From assembly GCF_021648885.1 (NCBI RefSeq), contig NZ_JAKJHZ010000005.1:310001-374000 (forward strand): a stretch of DNA of 64,000 nucleotides, in the 5' to 3' direction. Below the pieces are notes generated by a model. That model was not told where the DNA came from and did not search any database. It worked only from the letters and a program-made list of their open reading frames with translations. Origin of the DNA: Nocardioides potassii (GTDB taxonomy: Bacteria > Actinomycetota > Actinomycetes > Propionibacteriales > Nocardioidaceae). This document shows positions 16,994 to 57,997 of this stretch, one piece after another; the first letter of the stretch is position 1; each line of letters opens with the position of its first letter. Position numbers and translations under genes: made by a program.

Positions 16994-17069
16994 GACCGGC
17001 GGTATCAATCTCCCCGTCAGGGCCTCCTTGCTGGTTGAGTGTGCAACCACGTCGATGGAGGGGACCCGG

Positions 17070-49168: not shown

Positions 49169-50026
49169 GTGCTGAGGACCCGCGGGCTAGGACAGGTGCG
49201 CGTGCTGGGCCCGGGCGACCGGGACAGCTTCGTGGCGCTCGCGGAGCAGGACCCGGTGGTCAACGTCTTCGCCGACTACCGCGCCCGCCTCACCAACCTC
49301 GACGAGCGCTGGCTCGGCGGCCAGGTGTGGGGGCGGTTCGAGGACGACCGGCTCGTCGCCGGCTGCCACCTCGGCGCCAACCTCGTACCGGTGCAGTGCA
49401 CGCCCGAAGACGTCGACGCGTTCGCCGACGCCGCGCTGCGTCGCCGCAACAGCGTCGGCACGATCGTCGGTCCGAGCGACGTCGTGGCGTCGCTGTGGCA
49501 GGTCCTCGAGCCCCGGTGGGCCCGGCCACGCGAGATCCGCGCGCGGCAGCCGCACCTCCAGATGGACCGGCCCTCGAGCATCGCGGGCGACCCGCAGGTG
49601 CGGGTCACGACGCCCGCCGACCTCGAGGTCCTCTACCCGGCCTGCGTGGCGATGTACACCGAGGAGGTCGGCGTCTCGCCCGAGAACGACGCGGGCGGCG
49701 GCGACCTCTACCGGGCGCGGATCCGCCAGCTCATCGGCCGTGGCTGGTCGATGGCCAGCTTCGACGACGCGGGTGTGGTGTTCAAGGCCGAGGTCGCGTG
49801 CGCGACGCCGTACGCGGCCCAGGTGCAGGGCGTCTGGGTGCGGCCCGACCGTCGGGGCGAGGGACTCAGCGTGTCGGGGATGGCCGCGGTGGTCGACCAC
49901 GTCCTGGGGACCGGCATGGCGCCAGTCGTCTCGCTCTACGTCAACGAGTGGAACGAGCCCGCCCGCGCGGCCTACGCCCGGGTCGGGTTCGTGCAGACCG
50001 CGACCTTCGCCACGATGATGTTCTGA
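49169..50026 (+). CDS. DUF4081 plus GNAT acetyltransferase
   Basis: The 285-residue protein has an N-terminal DUF4081 half (L-G-P-G-D-R-D-S-F-V-A-L-A) and a C-terminal GNAT half with V-W-V-R-P-D-R-R-G-E-G-L-S-V-S-G-M motif A and Y-V-N-E-W-N-E-P-A-R-A-A-Y-A-R-V-G-F. This architecture is conserved next to ispG in mycobacteria and relatives. The substrate is unknown. A TAGGCT element lies six bases before the GTG. Confidence 0.88.
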   Translation: MLRTRGLGQVRVLGPGDRDSFVALAEQDPVVNVFADYRARLTNLDERWLGGQVWGRFEDDRLVAGCHLGANLVPVQCTPEDVDAFADAALRRRNSVGTIVGPSDVVASLWQVLEPRWARPREIRARQPHLQMDRPSSIAGDPQVRVTTPADLEVLYPACVAMYTEEVGVSPENDAGGGDLYRARIRQLIGRGWSMASFDDAGVVFKAEVACATPYAAQVQGVWVRPDRRGEGLSVSGMAAVVDHVLGTGMAPVVSLYVNEWNEPARAAYARVGFVQTATFATMMF

Positions 50027-50098
50027 AACCGGTTCCTCATCCCGTGTATCAGCACGGCGGTGGGACACACCTGTAGTGACATGGGGACAATGGTCACC

Positions 50099-50692
50099 AT
50101 GTCGGAGAACCGGAGGGCTGAGGGGCAGCTCGATCAGTCACCGTGGAACAGGGCCAGCGAGGCGTTCATCGCGTGGAGGTCGGGGGACCCCACCGCCGTG
50201 GACGAGCTGGTCGCCACGATGACACCGGTCCTCTGGCACGTGGTGAGGGCGTACGGGCACGACCGTCAGGCGTCGGAGGACGTCATCCAGGGGACGTGGC
50301 TCGGGTTCGTGCGCCTGCACCAGACCATCGAGGACCCCAAGGCGGTCGCGTCCTGGCTGATCACCTCAGCCAGGCGCGGCGCTGCCGCCCATGCCAGGAC
50401 CGCGCGACGTGCGGCCCCGGTGCAGGACGAGACCCTGCACGACGCGCTCCCGGACGAGGAGCCGGCGGAGGAGACCGCCCTGCGTGACGACGAGGCGTCA
50501 CGGCTGTGGGGAGCCGTGGCGTCCGTCGACGAACGCTGCCGCAAGCTGCTGCGGGTCGTCGCCTTCCTGGACCGGCCCGACTACCACTCCCTGAGCCAGG
50601 ACCTCGACATGCCCGTCGGGAGCATCGGACCCACGCGGGCCCGCTGCCTGGCGAAGGTCCGGACCGCACTGACGAAAGGAGGCGGGCGATGA
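50099..50692 (+). CDS. Sigma-70 family (ECF-like) RNA polymerase sigma factor
   Basis: From the ATG at 50099 the protein has 197 residues. Region 2 lies around W-R-S-G-D-P-T-A-V-D-E-L to H-D-R-Q-A-S-E-D-V-I-Q-G-T-W-L-G-F (about 20-75). A Glu/Asp-rich linker follows, then a region 4 helix-turn-helix around E-R-C-R-K-L-L-R-V-V-A to S-L-S-Q-D-L-D-M-P-V-G-S-I-G (about 130-170). GACAAT at 50086-50091 is seven bases ahead of the ATG; in-frame ATGs at 50060 and 50090 are less likely. The gene overlaps the next by four bases and begins the protease island. Confidence 0.85.
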   Translation: MSENRRAEGQLDQSPWNRASEAFIAWRSGDPTAVDELVATMTPVLWHVVRAYGHDRQASEDVIQGTWLGFVRLHQTIEDPKAVASWLITSARRGAAAHARTARRAAPVQDETLHDALPDEEPAEETALRDDEASRLWGAVASVDERCRKLLRVVAFLDRPDYHSLSQDLDMPVGSIGPTRARCLAKVRTALTKGGGR

Positions 50693-51168
50693 CCGACCGG
50701 GATGCCGACGACACCGCGCAGGACCTCGCTCTCCTCGAGGAGCTGCGCACGATGTGGGTGACCTACGACCCGCCGCCGCCCGACCTGACCGCGACGATGA
50801 TCGCCGCGGTGGCCGCCGCCGGCCTGGACGACGAGTGGGAGATGCTCACGCTGGTCAGCGACTCCGCCGACGGCCCGGTCGCGCAGGTGCGCGGCCTGAG
50901 CACGTCCCGCGTCCTCTACTTCAATGCCGCGGCCGGCTGGTCGCTCGAGGCCGAGATCGACGGCACCGACGTCAAGGGCCAGCTGCTGGACCACCCCGGC
51001 GACATGGATTCGGTCGAGGTCGCGCTGGAGACGCGCGACGGCGCGTCCTGGACGACCGGCGTCGACGAGGTCGGCTTCTTCGCCCTCACCGCCACGCCCA
51101 CCGGATCGGTGCGCTTCGCGGTCACGATCGGCGGGCGGGTCGCCCGCAGCCGCTGGCTCGACGTCTGA
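50689..51168 (+). CDS. Sigma-coupled small protein, candidate regulator
   Basis: The 159-residue protein starts at an ATG that overlaps the sigma stop. An acidic helical N-terminus (residues 1-45, with D-L-A-L-L-E-E-L-R-T-M-W and the short stretch P-P-P-P-D-L) is followed by about 100 residues of alternating beta strands (E-W-E-M-L-T-L-V, V-A-Q-V-R-G-L, V-E-V-A-L-E-T-R-D and V-R-F-A-V-T-I-G-G), resembling a transthyretin or carboxypeptidase-regulatory sandwich. There are no membrane helices or Cys. I do not recognise a family. Its position suggests an anti-sigma or adaptor, possibly a protease target. Confidence 0.7.
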   Translation: MTDRDADDTAQDLALLEELRTMWVTYDPPPPDLTATMIAAVAAAGLDDEWEMLTLVSDSADGPVAQVRGLSTSRVLYFNAAAGWSLEAEIDGTDVKGQLLDHPGDMDSVEVALETRDGASWTTGVDEVGFFALTATPTGSVRFAVTIGGRVARSRWLDV

Positions 51169-51175
51169 GGGCGTC

Positions 51176-52450
51176 TCACTCGAAGTCCGGGTGCAGCTCC
51201 AGGTGCGGTCCGACCACGGGGTCCGAGTCGGGGGTCGCCCCGGCCAGCACGGCGTCGCGCGCCTCCGCGGCCGTCGATCCGGTCTCGCTGATGTGGCGGG
51301 CGATCAGTCCTGCCACGACGGGGGCCGCGAACGACGTACCGCTCCAGCGGGCCAGTCCGGTGCTGAACACCCGTACGTCGCCCTTGCTCGGGCTCTCGTG
51401 GCACACGAAGGTGCCGTCGGGGAACGCGTTCACGAGGTTGCGGCCGAGCGTGAAGACGTCGGCCGAGACGCCGTAGTTGCTGAAGTCCGAGACCCGGCCG
51501 TCGCGATCGAGCGAGCCCACCCCGACAGCCCACGGGAACGCGGCCGGCCAGAACGGCGCCGCCCACGAGTCGTTGCCCGCGGCGGCGACCAGCACGCAGT
51601 CCCGTCGGCGCAGGCGGGTGCGGTGGAAGACCTCGAGCGCGATCGACGGCAGGTCGTCGCGGGTGCGGCAGCCGGCGGACAGGTTGATCACCTGCGGGTC
51701 GTGGCCGAGCGCCTCCTCGAGCTGCCCGACCAGGTCGGACTCCAGGATGCCGCCGCCCCCGATGCCGCCGACGGCGAAGCCCTCGACGAAGACCGCCGAC
51801 GTCGGTGCCATCGATCGCACGACGCCGGCGATGAACGTCCCGTGGCCGGCGTACGGCCGCAGCTCGGGGCCGTTCTCCTCGTCGTCGCCGGTGACGCCGT
51901 CGAGCCACGGCGTGCGCGGGTCGCTGCCCGACGGTGGGTTCCACCCGGTGTCGACGACCACGACGCTCACGGTGCGGCCGCGCTTCTGGGGAGCCAGGCG
52001 CGGCCACGGCTCGGTCAGGCCGGTCTCCTCCGGCTCGGTCGCCGGGCAGGCCGACCCTCCGCCGCCACCACCCGGGGCGACGTGGACCCAGTGGTCCGGT
52101 GACACGGCACCCCGGCGGAGCCCGGCGCGCTCGAGCAGGTCGAGCAGCTCCGGGACGGTCTCACCCCCCGGGCGCCGCGGCAGGACGTAGCGGACGAGCT
52201 GGCCGTCGAGCAGCTCGGCGTCCACCCGCGGCGACTCCTCGAGCACGCCCTTGTCGAGCTGGGCGACCGCGCGCTCGAAGTCGGCGGTGTCGTCGGACCG
52301 CATGAGGACGCGGTCGGGGTGGAACAGGTAGGTGAAGTCCGCCGGTGCCTCGGTGTCCCAGGCCACGCCACCGTCGTTGGCGGCTCGCAGGTCCCGGAGC
52401 TGGTCCGTCGTACGTCGTCGTGAGTCGTTGCCGATCTTCCAGTCGCTCAT
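51176..52450 (-). CDS. Cytosolic subtilisin-like (S8) protease
   Basis: The 424-residue protein has no signal peptide. An N-terminal domain of about 150 residues ends in a Gly-rich linker. The S8 core has Asp167 in V-V-V-V-D-T-G-W, His203 in Y-A-G-H-G-T-F-I-A-G-V-V, the oxyanion Asn293 in A-A-A-G-N-D and Ser373 in G-T-S-F-A-A-P-V-V-A-G. All four are intact. It may be a cytosolic or regulated protease that works with the TPR-CHAT protein encoded divergently. TAGCGT at 52457-52462 lies six bases before the ATG. Confidence 0.88.
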   Translation of the reverse strand: MSDWKIGNDSRRRTTDQLRDLRAANDGGVAWDTEAPADFTYLFHPDRVLMRSDDTADFERAVAQLDKGVLEESPRVDAELLDGQLVRYVLPRRPGGETVPELLDLLERAGLRRGAVSPDHWVHVAPGGGGGGSACPATEPEETGLTEPWPRLAPQKRGRTVSVVVVDTGWNPPSGSDPRTPWLDGVTGDDEENGPELRPYAGHGTFIAGVVRSMAPTSAVFVEGFAVGGIGGGGILESDLVGQLEEALGHDPQVINLSAGCRTRDDLPSIALEVFHRTRLRRRDCVLVAAAGNDSWAAPFWPAAFPWAVGVGSLDRDGRVSDFSNYGVSADVFTLGRNLVNAFPDGTFVCHESPSKGDVRVFSTGLARWSGTSFAAPVVAGLIARHISETGSTAAEARDAVLAGATPDSDPVVGPHLELHPDFE

Positions 52451-52456
52451 GGCGCG

Positions 52457-52462
52457 ACGCTA
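52457..52462 (-). promoter_or_regulatory. -10 element, leaderless promoter of the S8 protease
   Basis: Minus-strand TAGCGT is followed by six bases and the ATG at 52450. Confidence 0.55.
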
Positions 52463-52492
52463 GCGGCGCCGATCGCCTCGCGGGGTGGAATC

Positions 52493-52506
52493 CCGGCCAC
52501 GGCCGG
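52493..52506. promoter_or_regulatory. Palindrome in the divergent S8/CHAT promoter region
   Basis: CCGGCC-AC-GGCCGG sits at the centre of the 80-base gap between the two protease genes, where a shared operator could lie. Confidence 0.3.
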
Positions 52507-52518
52507 ATCCCGATCGGC

Positions 52519-52524
52519 GAGGAT
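52519..52524 (+). promoter_or_regulatory. Possible -10 element of the TPR-CHAT gene
   Basis: GAGGAT is followed by six bases and the GTG at 52531; the first base departs from TAnnnT. Confidence 0.35.
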
Positions 52525-52530
52525 GGAGCC

Positions 52531-55116
52531 GTGGACCGGGCCGAGGCGGACGAGGTGCTGCGCACCCTGTTCACCGACCCGGCGGCGGCCCGCGCGACGG
52601 CCGAGTCCGAGCTGGTGCCCGACCCCGATCCGTACCTGGCCTCGATCGGCCACCAGGTGGTCGGCATCGTCCTCCGCGACCTCGGGCACGCCGACCGCGC
52701 CCTGGCCGAGCTCAGGACCGCGCTGCGGCTCGCGCGCCGGTGCGACGACGCCGAGCGGTGGCCAGAGGTGCTGGCCACGTACGGGGCGACGCTGGCGATG
52801 GCCCGGCGGGCGAGCGAGGGACTCCGACACCTCGACCGCGCCGCGGCGGCCCTCGACGGCGTGCCCCGCGGCCGCGTGCTGGTGCGTCGTGCCTTGGTCA
52901 CCGGGCACCTGATGGCCCGCTTCGAGGAGAGTGCTGCCGACCTCCGCGAGGCGCGCCGGCTGTTCGCCGGCGCGGGCGACGAGGTGTGGGAGGCGCGTGC
53001 CCTCAACCTCGAGGGGCTCGCCGACGCCAAGCTCGGCGCGCTCGACTCGGCGGCGGAGGCCTTCGAGCGGTTCGAGGACCTGTCCGTGCGGTCGGGTGAG
53101 CACTCCGCTGTCGCGACCGCGCGCCACAACAGGGGCTGGGTGTCCTACCTCCGGGGCGACCTGCCCGAGGCGCTCGAGGCGTACGCCGACGCCAGGGCGC
53201 AGTTCGACGCGCTGGGCATGACCAACGTCGACCTCGTCCTCGACCAGGCCACGTCCTACCTGGCCGGCGGCCTGGCGAGCGACGCCCTCGCCGTCGTCGA
53301 GCAGGCCCTGGTCGCGCGCCCCCTCCTGGCTCGCGAGCGCGCCGACCTCCTCGTCTCGGTCGCCGAGTCGGCCCTCGCGGCGCGAGACTGGGAGCGTGCC
53401 GCCTCGGCGGCCGACGAGGGGGCGTCCCTCATGCGTGCCCAGTCGCGCCATGCGCCCAGCCTCGAGGCCGACCTCTTCGCGACAGCCGCACGCGCCGAGC
53501 TGGGGCACCCCTCCGCAGCACTGCTGCGCCGCGCCGAGCGCGTGGTCACGCGGATGCGCGAGGCGCGGATGCCTCAGCTCCCGCAGGCGCTCCTGCTCGG
53601 TGCGCGGCTGGCGCGGGCCGTGCGGTCCCCGCGGGCTGCGGCCCTGGCCGACGCGTGGCTCGACGAGGCGTCCGGCTACCGCCGGGCCCCCCACCGCGCC
53701 GTCCGGGCACTGGGGTGGCTCGCCCTGGCGCAGCGTCGTGACGCCGCGGGCGACAACGGGGGCGTGCTGCGGGCGTGCGACCGCGGCCTGCGCGCCCTCG
53801 ACGAGCACCAGGCGAGCCTCGGCAGCCACGAGCTCCGCGCGCTCATGTCGGGGCATGGTGCCGCGCTGGCCGAGCTCGGCACCCGCACCGCGCTCGCCTC
53901 CGGCGACCCGCGCCACCTGCTGCAGTGGTCCGAGCGCTGGCGCGCCAACGCGCTCGTCGTACCGTCGACCGCCGGGGCGCAGGACCCGGAGACCGCCGCC
54001 GACCTCGCCGCCCTCCGTGCCCAGCACCAGGCGCTCGCCGCCGCGCGTGCGCAGGGCGAGCGCACCGACCAGCTGCAGGCGCGCGTCACCCGCCTCGAGC
54101 AGGCCGTGCGTCGCCGGCTTCTCAACGCACGCGGGTCTGGCGTGACCGCCTCCGCGCTGGACGTCGGCGAGCTCGTCGACGCGTTGCGGGCGGACGACAC
54201 GGTCCTCGTCGAGCTGACGGAGGTCGACGGCGTCCTCCACGCGCTCGTCGCGGGGCGTGGGCGCGTCCAGCACCACGAGGTCGGTCCCGCAGCGGCAGCG
54301 GCCGCAGCCGTCGACTTCGCCCTGTTCACCCTCCGCCAGGCGGCCCGCGGCCGGCGCGCGCAGCTCGACGTGGCGGGCGCTCGTCTCCAGCGCGCGTTGC
54401 TCGGCCCGTCCCTCGACGGGGTGGGGGAGTCCCGCGTCGTCGTCTCCGGCACCTCATCCCTCCAGGGCGTGCCGTGGGGGTTGCTGCCCGCACTCGCCGA
54501 CCGCCCCGTCACCAGTACGCCGTCCGCGCGGCTGTGGCTGCGCTCGCGGTCGGCCGCCGCCGACACCGACCGTCGCGTGATGCTCGTCGGGCCCGGCCTG
54601 GGCAGCGGTGGGGCAGAGGTGCCCGCCATCGCGACCGAGGACCCGCGCGCCGAGGTGCTCGGCGGTGACCGGGCGACCGTGGCCGCCTCGCTGGCCGCGC
54701 TCGACGGTGCCGCACTCGTCCACGTCGCCGCCCACGGCCACTTCCGCGAGGACAGCCCGCTGTTCTCGTCCCTCACGCTGGCCGACGGCCCGTTGCTCGT
54801 GCACGACCTCCAGCACCTGGCGCGCCCGCCGCACCGGGTCGTGCTGTCCGCCTGCGAGTCGGGAGTCATGGCGCCGGTCGGCGACCAGGAGCTGCTGGGT
54901 CTGGCCGCGGCGCTGCTGTCGATGGGCACGGCGGGTGTCGTGTCCAGCCTCGCCGAGGTCGACGACGCGGCGACGGTGGAGGTGATGGTTGCCCTGCACG
55001 CGGCCCTCCGCGCGGGTGCCGGCCTCGGCGATGCCCTGCTCGCCGCTCGTCAGGTCTCGGCCGGCGACCAGGTGCTGGCCGCCACCGCGGCGTCGTTCAC
55101 CGTCCTGGGGACCTGA
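52531..55116 (+). CDS. TPR-CHAT caspase-like protease
   Basis: The 861-residue protein starts V-D-R-A-E-A-D-E-V-L. Residues about 25-520 are tetratricopeptide-like helical repeats (W-E-A-R-A-L-N-L-E-G-L-A-D, A-R-H-N-R-G-W-V-S-Y and others). A coiled region follows, then the C-terminal CHAT domain (about 650-861). The caspase-like dyad is intact: His735 in V-H-V-A-A-H-G-H-F and Cys775 in V-V-L-S-A-C-E-S-G. CHAT proteases cut substrates after activation by a TPR-sensed partner, as in type III-E CRISPR. Here no CRISPR genes are near, but a sigma factor and an S8 protease are. No signal peptide is present. Confidence 0.9.
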   Translation: MDRAEADEVLRTLFTDPAAARATAESELVPDPDPYLASIGHQVVGIVLRDLGHADRALAELRTALRLARRCDDAERWPEVLATYGATLAMARRASEGLRHLDRAAAALDGVPRGRVLVRRALVTGHLMARFEESAADLREARRLFAGAGDEVWEARALNLEGLADAKLGALDSAAEAFERFEDLSVRSGEHSAVATARHNRGWVSYLRGDLPEALEAYADARAQFDALGMTNVDLVLDQATSYLAGGLASDALAVVEQALVARPLLARERADLLVSVAESALAARDWERAASAADEGASLMRAQSRHAPSLEADLFATAARAELGHPSAALLRRAERVVTRMREARMPQLPQALLLGARLARAVRSPRAAALADAWLDEASGYRRAPHRAVRALGWLALAQRRDAAGDNGGVLRACDRGLRALDEHQASLGSHELRALMSGHGAALAELGTRTALASGDPRHLLQWSERWRANALVVPSTAGAQDPETAADLAALRAQHQALAAARAQGERTDQLQARVTRLEQAVRRRLLNARGSGVTASALDVGELVDALRADDTVLVELTEVDGVLHALVAGRGRVQHHEVGPAAAAAAAVDFALFTLRQAARGRRAQLDVAGARLQRALLGPSLDGVGESRVVVSGTSSLQGVPWGLLPALADRPVTSTPSARLWLRSRSAAADTDRRVMLVGPGLGSGGAEVPAIATEDPRAEVLGGDRATVAASLAALDGAALVHVAAHGHFREDSPLFSSLTLADGPLLVHDLQHLARPPHRVVLSACESGVMAPVGDQELLGLAAALLSMGTAGVVSSLAEVDDAATVEVMVALHAALRAGAGLGDALLAARQVSAGDQVLAATAASFTVLGT

Positions 55117-56218: not shown

Positions 56219-57997
56219 ATGGCCGCCCGCATCCTCCGCATGTCGTCCCTCTTCGTGCGCACCCTGCGCGACGACCCGAACGACGCCGAGGTGCCGAGCC
56301 ACAAGCTGCTGGTCCGGGCCGGCTACATCCGCCGCAACGCGCCGGGCATCTACACCTGGCTGCCCCTCGGTCTCCGCGTCCTGCGCAAGATCGAGGACAT
56401 CATCCGCGAGGAGATGGACGACATGGGCGCCCAGGAGCTGTCGTTCCCCGCCCTGCTCCCCAAGGAGCCCTACGAGGCGACCAACCGGTGGACCGAGTAC
56501 GGCCCCAACATCTTCCGCCTGCAGGACCGCAAGGGCGCCGACTACCTCCTCGGCCCCACGCACGAGGAGATGTTCACCCTGGTGGTGAAGGACCTGTACT
56601 CGTCCTACAAGGACCTGCCCCTGTCGATCTACCAGATCCAGACCAAGTACCGCGACGAGGCGCGTCCCCGCGCGGGGCTGCTGCGCGGGCGCGAGTTCAT
56701 CATGAAGGACTCCTACTCCTTCGACGTCGACGACGCCGGGCTCGAGGAGTCCTACCGCAAGCACCGCGACGCCTACATCCGCATCTTCGACCGCCTCGGC
56801 TTCGAGTACGTCATCGTCAAGGCGACCTCCGGTGCGATGGGTGGCTCGGCGAGCGAGGAGTTCCTGGCCAAGGCCGAGGTCGGTGAGGACACCTACGTCC
56901 GCTGCACGCACTGCGACTACGCCGCCAACGTCGAGGCCGTCACCGTGCCCACGCCCGCCCCCGTGCCGTACGACGACGCGCCCGCCGCGCACGCGGAGGA
57001 CACCCCCGGCACGCCCACCATCGACAGCCTGGTCGACCACCTCAACGCAGCCTTCCCCCGCGACGACCGGCCGTGGGTCGCCGGCGACACCCTCAAGAAC
57101 GTGCTCGTCGTGCTCAAGCATCCAGACGGCACGCGCGAGCCGCTGGCCATCGGCGTGCCCGGCGACCGGGAGGTCGACCAGAAGCGCCTCGAGGGCCAGC
57201 TCGAGCCCATCGAGGTCGAGCCCATGGACGAGGCCGAGCTGGCCAGGCACCCGGCGCTGGTGAAGGGCTACATCGGCCCCGAGGTGCTCGGGGAGGAGTC
57301 GAAGTCCGGCATCCGCTTCGTCGTCGACCCGCGCATCTCCGAGGGCACCCGCTGGGTCACCGGCGCCAACGTCCACGGCTCGCACGTCATCGACATGGTC
57401 GTCGGTCGCGACTTCACCCCCGACGGCACCATCGAGGCCGCCGACGTGCGTGACGGCGACGCCTGCCCGAACTGCCACGAGGGCACGCTCGAGTCCGCCC
57501 GCGGCGTCGAGATGGGCCACATCTTCCAGCTCGGCCGGAAGTACGCCGACGCGTTGGGGCTGAAGGTCCTCGACGAGAACGGCAAGCTCGTCACCGTCAC
57601 GATGGGCTCCTACGGCATCGGACCGTCCCGTGCCGTGGCCGCGATCGCCGAGGGCACCCTCGACGAGCTCGGTCTGTCCTGGCCCCGCAACGTCGCACCG
57701 GCCGACGTGCACGTGGTCGCCGCGGGCAAGGACGACGTGATCCTCGGCGCGGCGGAGCAGCTCGCCCGCGAGCTCAAGGACGCCGGGCTCGACGTGCTGC
57801 TCGACGACCGCACGGGGAAGATCACGCCGGGCGTGAAGTTCAAGGACGCCGAGCTCATCGGGGTGCCCACGATCGTCACGGTCGGCCGTGGTCTCGCCGA
57901 CGGCACGGTCGAGGTCCGCGACCGTGCGTCGGGCGCGCGCGAGGAGGTCGCTGTCGAGCGGGCCGCGTCGCACATCGTGGGTGTCGTACGGGCCTGA
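56219..57997 (+). CDS. proS: Prolyl-tRNA synthetase
   Basis: The 592-residue protein is a bacterial-type ProS. Class II motif 2 lies in [19 protein letters not shown]; the INS editing insertion (about 225-410) includes D-D-R-P-W-V-A-G-D; motif 3 is near 475 in [10 protein letters not shown]-terminal anticodon-binding domain follows. It charges tRNA-Pro and edits Ala-tRNA. An ATG eight codons in (M-S-S-L-F) is possible, but TATCCT at seven bases supports the first. Confidence 0.96.

Follow-up and report, generated by a model that had tools for sequence, protein, structure and literature searches.

We analyzed a stretch of 64,000 nucleotides (nt) of Nocardioides potassii DNA (GCF_021648885.1, NZ_JAKJHZ010000005.1, positions 310,001–374,000, forward strand), here called the window. 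It carries a cassette of four intact genes, encoding an extracytoplasmic function (ECF) sigma factor, a small partner protein, a subtilisin-like S8 protease and a protease with tetratricopeptide repeats and a CHAT domain (TPR-CHAT). The sigma factor gene (50090..50692, + strand, starting at 50090 or at the in-frame ATG 50099) overlaps by 4 nt with the partner gene (50689..51168, + strand, 159 amino acids, aa). The S8 gene (51176..52450, − strand, 424 aa) is convergent with the latter, with 7 nt between the partner stop and the S8 end. The TPR-CHAT gene (52531..55116, + strand, 861 aa) is divergent from S8, 80 nt from its start. An earlier note on this DNA had described the same arrangement, and its coordinates were confirmed.

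The Pfam scores of the window proteins were 8.7e-9 for Sigma70_r2, 1.3e-23 for Peptidase_S8 and 2.1e-27 for CHAT. The assignment of the sigma factor was supported by the alignment, by the NCBIfam model sigma70-ECF (56.4 bits, cut-off 42.9) and by Sigma70_r2, also above its cut-off. Its region 4 has a GSIGPTRxRCL motif. Both proteases had their active sites intact. The S8 residues Asp167, His203 and Ser373, together with Asn293, were invariant in 105 S8 homologues, and His735 and Cys775 (codon 54853..54855, + strand) in 105 CHAT homologues, so the catalytic residues had been named correctly in the earlier note.

Co-conservation of the four genes

Co-conservation had been set beforehand as the refutation test for a functional link between the four genes. 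We assessed it on an independent sample of loci, seeded on the sigma alignment alone, in named genomes including Nocardioides, Microbacterium, Cellulomonas, Amycolatopsis, Saccharothrix, Nonomuraea and Paractinoplanes. The sigma factor was chosen as the scan query; the partner alignment was too poorly conserved for scanning. In the 72 loci where a sigma gene was called, the partner was found in 63, CHAT in 56, S8 in 46 and all four genes in 44. Throughout the first 30 loci, the partner gene adjoined the sigma gene. Larger regions had the order sigma-partner-S8-CHAT nearly everywhere the contig permitted. Elsewhere the set was kept together in permuted orders: S8-sigma-partner-CHAT, S8 and CHAT divergent before sigma, or CHAT and S8 divergent after the partner.

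Of 121 genomes in the family, 33 had a partner homologue (single-sequence search). Profile searches gave 47 of 98 genomes for the order and 36 of 296 for the phylum, some of the last being weak beta-domain matches only. A CHAT gene was found in all 38 partner-bearing genomes, versus 14 of 42 partner-free ones (Fisher p 3.6e-11, which overstates independence because the genomes are related). Within the family, the counts were 11/11 and 2/18. CHAT was also present in all ten genomes without a called CHAT beside the partner, in some a few kb off and in others unlinked. The window genome has one CHAT gene and five S8 genes. This rarity, together with the recurrence of the set across the phylum, ruled out chance neighbours. 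The four families are a real module.

GTATCA promoter and the exchangeable protease

The sigma-partner operon is preceded by a predicted ECF promoter at 50046..50073 (+ strand), with a −35 element GTATCA (50046–50051), a spacer of 16 nt and a −10 element CACCTG (50068–50073). It aligned in close relatives. Of 131 regions upstream of sigma, 67 contained GTATCA, where shuffles gave 2.1, and a CTC element followed at a spacer of 16 or 17 nt (GTATCA-N16/17-CTC). In operons opening with S8, the motif precedes S8 instead of sigma. It thus marks the operon start, because it tracks the first gene, whether sigma or S8. From this sequence pattern, it is very probable that the operon is transcribed by its own sigma factor. 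In the window, only sigma and partner sit behind the GTATCA promoter.

The idea of a large regulon was considered for the window genome and rejected: exact promoter matches numbered only five, versus three for the reversed pattern. Beyond the sigma operon, the exact-match search of this genome establishes no target. One match (GTATCA-N16-CTCC, window 17002–17027) lies directly after ffh. An M29 aminopeptidase gene (17055) follows the site after 27 nt and, judging by it, is a possible further target. The match was not repeated among the hits of six relatives scanned with the same pattern.

In relatives, the genes preceded by GTATCA (some in at least two genomes) included those of trypsin-like proteases, of partner-like paralogues and of two small proteins, one of 105–112 aa after CHAT and one of 126–131 aa. 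The 105–112 aa protein is encoded directly after CHAT, behind its own GTATCA promoter (L139:3917-4234, L140:3579-3896, L141:3971-4309 and L209:12156-12494). It gave no confident Pfam family and is perhaps, as a guess, a protease inhibitor. The conserved, helical-looking 126–131 aa protein (MTW-ETH-RT-IIREVE) is encoded divergently from sigma, behind a GTATCA promoter, in L036, L038 and L054.

The S8 slot is exchangeable, being taken by a subtilisin, a trypsin-like or a papain-like protease. In Cellulomonas, a trypsin-like, NAL1-related protease divergent from sigma replaces S8 and has its own GTATCT/GTATCA promoter. NAL1-like proteases of the trypsin family, with the same promoter type, were seen divergent from or near sigma in L166, L174, L176, L180, L151 and L165. 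Some Pseudonocardiales have a papain-like protease upstream, and a chagasin-type inhibitor is encoded beside another sigma-partner pair. Because trypsin-like or papain-like proteases replace it in other lineages, the most likely role of S8 is that of an effector or of a clean-up protease. Of the two-protease cascade proposed in the earlier note, the possibility stands, but replacement of S8 by unrelated proteases is more in keeping with an effector than with a fixed step in a cascade. As the earlier note had stated, no signal peptide was apparent in the window S8, nor an N-terminal membrane segment, by hydropathy only. The S8 homologue at L161:9264-10577 begins with RRRILALSALAAAA, resembling a twin-arginine signal, unlike the remaining family.

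Arginine 68 of the partner and the TPR-CHAT protease

The AlphaFold2 model of the partner had a mean predicted local distance difference test score (pLDDT) of 90. It consists of helices at residues 6–26, 33–43 and 46–49, a strand at 51–58, a low-confidence loop at 59–73 and a beta-sandwich at 74–154. Arg68 (codon 50890..50892, + strand) is in this loop (pLDDT 66), between the helical N-terminus and the beta-sandwich. It was unchanged in 140 of 140 partners, never Lys, at a mean identity of about 30%. In 137 of the 140 it was followed by Gly, Ser, Ala or Thr, giving the consensus LAGVR↓G/S. Besides Arg68 and the start Met, only one further position, a glycine, was fully invariant. This pattern plausibly represents a protease recognition site, with Arg68 as the proposed P1 residue (VR↓G in the window).

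The window partner had no Pfam match. A fold search of the PDB gave only weak Ig/FnIII-like sandwiches, none at E < 0.001. A match of a single family member to RsiG (E 0.14) was at chance level and was discarded. Partner-like paralogues with an altered N-terminus and the VR[ST] kept were found 7 nt behind GTATCA promoters (L057:8591-9028, L058:9567-10013 and L059:1121-1567); they are possibly competing substrates.

The fold of the TPR-CHAT model (mean pLDDT 93.9) resembles those of human separase, Csx29 and DdvA, with separase as the top match. By sequence, the best PDB matches of the CHAT domain were DdvA (5.6e-13) and Csx29. Separase has Arg in P1 of its substrates, and its S1 pocket was modelled with two acidic residues (PMC4626109). 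Asp812, kept in 103 of 105 CHAT homologues, is the positional counterpart of one of them, matched by its place at the start of a late helix and from the literature rather than by superposition, the profile covering separase only around Trp649. Arg496 of CHAT was considered as an auto-cleavage site and rejected; it is conserved, but lies inside a confident helix of the model and is more likely structural.

From these data we tentatively propose, at somewhat short of even chances, that the module is an ECF sigma switch gated by proteolysis in the cytoplasm, where the partner restrains sigma and CHAT cuts the partner after Arg68. In the resting cell, partner made from the same operon would hold the sigma factor. 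An internal signal would activate TPR-CHAT, a protease resembling separase whose large TPR region would be the sensor. The active protease would cut the partner in the flexible loop between helical N-terminus and beta-sandwich, as the invariance of Arg68 and the fold suggest. Freed sigma would then transcribe from GTATCA-N16/17-CTC promoters, its own operon first. This autoregulation would lead to positive feedback, and to more protease where S8 and CHAT share the operon, while the exchangeable serine or cysteine protease would act as effector.

Several observations weigh against this switch. The partner matched no anti-sigma family in Pfam, NCBIfam or the PDB fold search. The CHAT position after Trp649 is G, A, S or T, not Glu, meaning that the second acidic S1 residue of separase is not kept. 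Asp812 may be a feature of CHAT in general and not of this family in particular. With one S1 acidic residue matched and the other not kept, Arg specificity of TPR-CHAT is therefore plausible only. The S8-CHAT intergenic region in the window has no GTATCA promoter. Finally, the beta-domain paralogues with altered N-terminus retain the Arg, which could thus be structural.

Other readings of the module were weighed on the same evidence. The proteases might instead degrade sigma itself constantly, until a signal stops the degradation, without any anti-sigma factor. This was suggested for the ECF54 group from the same gene context (PMC8999054). We noticed no invariant loop site like Arg68 in sigma (alignment inspected by eye), and such degradation leaves unexplained that sigma and partner genes overlap or abut and occur almost always together. 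We consider it unlikely.

Less likely again is that Arg68 is structural or contacts sigma, the partner being an uncut sensor or co-regulator and the proteases having other targets. The paralogues that keep the Arg and the confident overall fold of the partner fit this account. The low confidence of the loop itself, the lack of any Arg-to-Lys change in 140 sequences and the uniformly small next residue do not, and the near-obligate co-occurrence with CHAT across genomes speaks against an uncut partner.

Proteolysis at Arg68 might also be done by S8 and not by CHAT, with CHAT working either upstream, with S8 as its target, or downstream, against host proteins. In many loci the nearest gene is that of S8, and the window S8 has no obvious secretion signal. 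Against this, S8 is missing or replaced in lineages keeping partner and CHAT with the same Arg, and the S8 N-terminus showed no invariant Arg as an activation site. We regard S8 as an improbable cutter and retain CHAT as the candidate protease for Arg68.

Chromosomal position and comparison with known systems

The cassette is inserted between ispG-GNAT and proS. On its left lies a GNAT/DUF4081 acetyltransferase gene (49169..50026, + strand), and on its right proS (56219..57997, + strand), both outside the module. In relatives without the cassette, the acetyltransferase gene adjoins proS or hyp-proS, the regions reading ispG-GNAT-proS or ispG-GNAT-hyp-proS without a break. The cassette is therefore an insertion into the ispG-proS neighbourhood, as the earlier note had recognized. 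In genome G029, the ispG-GNAT locus (L311) and the cassette (G029:C1:4166000-4183000, L139) are at different places. Chromosomal sites thus differ within one genus, and the cassette has moved or been re-acquired. In another locus, a 1042-aa protein, SpvB-like by eye, is encoded divergently from the cassette behind a GTATCT-type site (L187:2032-5160).

A role of the module in phage defence or abortive infection, with proteolysis arresting or killing the cell, is very improbable. CHAT and caspase-like proteases do occur in defence systems, and some family members give weak matches to BovA models. However, PADLOC called no system for the window genes (only generic subtilase/IetS and weak BovA matches), the module is stably placed between housekeeping genes in this clade, and no defence genes were recognized beside it. 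The phage signal considered in the earlier note was dropped on these grounds.

The closest described gene context is that of ECF54, a group from Huang 2015 and Casas-Pastor 2021 as summarized in a 2022 review (PMC8999054). The part of the review on this group reports a context of carboxypeptidase, subtilase and CHAT, suggests proteolytic control of sigma and mentions no recognized anti-sigma factor for ECF54 in Actinobacteria. We found no experiment on proteolytic control in this context in the literature consulted. The window shares an ECF sigma factor with subtilase and CHAT, both over Pfam cut-offs and conserved in relatives; the likeness is one of gene context and domains. CarboxypepD_reg was matched by 10 of 22 partner homologues (best 2.7e-7), the window partner itself being unmatched, which probably explains the "carboxypeptidase" of the ECF54 literature. 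The ECF54 part of the review contains neither the partner and its invariant Arg nor the promoter, the exchangeable protease or the co-occurrence with unlinked CHAT. The sigma/subtilase/CHAT neighbourhood was thus known before. New here are the GTATCA promoter, the invariant partner Arg, the exchangeable S8 slot and the likeness of CHAT to separase, Csx29 and DdvA; with Arg68, the promoter and the obligate pairing with CHAT, what had been an annotation becomes a testable circuit.

In type III-E CRISPR (clustered regularly interspaced short palindromic repeats) systems, Csx30 restrains the ECF factor CASP-sigma and is cut in a flexible loop by the TPR-CHAT protein Csx29 (PMC10028731). The window has a TPR-CHAT protease and an ECF sigma factor as well, and restraint of sigma and the loop cut would be the corresponding steps. 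It differs in that its CHAT protein scored 28 bits against a Csx29 cut-off of 300, its partner was not recognized as Csx30 and it has an extra S8 protease. No CRISPR-like repeat array was found in the 64-kb window, which had one two-copy 24-nt repeat; cas genes elsewhere in the genome were not searched. Because of the low Csx29 score and the lack of an array, the analogy to Csx29-Csx30-CASP-sigma fits well as "works like", not as membership. Of the "undescribed CRISPR-independent version" suggested in the earlier note, the CRISPR-independent analogue fits, with a plausible single cleavage site, but "undescribed" does not, as the ECF54 context had been reported.

DdvA (PDB 8rot, 8rw5) likewise ties a CHAT fold to a sigma factor. 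Its CHAT protein is annotated as a membrane-bound anti-sigma factor, whereas here CHAT is apparently soluble and the small partner is separate. Separase shares the fold and would share the preference for Arg in P1, but has 14% identity, a second acidic S1 residue and another substrate. A broader reading, held with slightly less assurance than the switch in the window, is a CRISPR-independent TPR-CHAT circuit across Actinomycetota, in which a separase-like protease would respond to an internal signal, cut the small protein restraining sigma at an invariant Arg and set off self-amplifying transcription and an exchangeable effector protease, a caspase-type cascade wired to transcription. If this is true, actinobacteria carry a caspase-type response, and TPR-CHAT proteins control transcription more widely, type III-E CRISPR with its protease-sigma logic and DdvA being two branches of such control.

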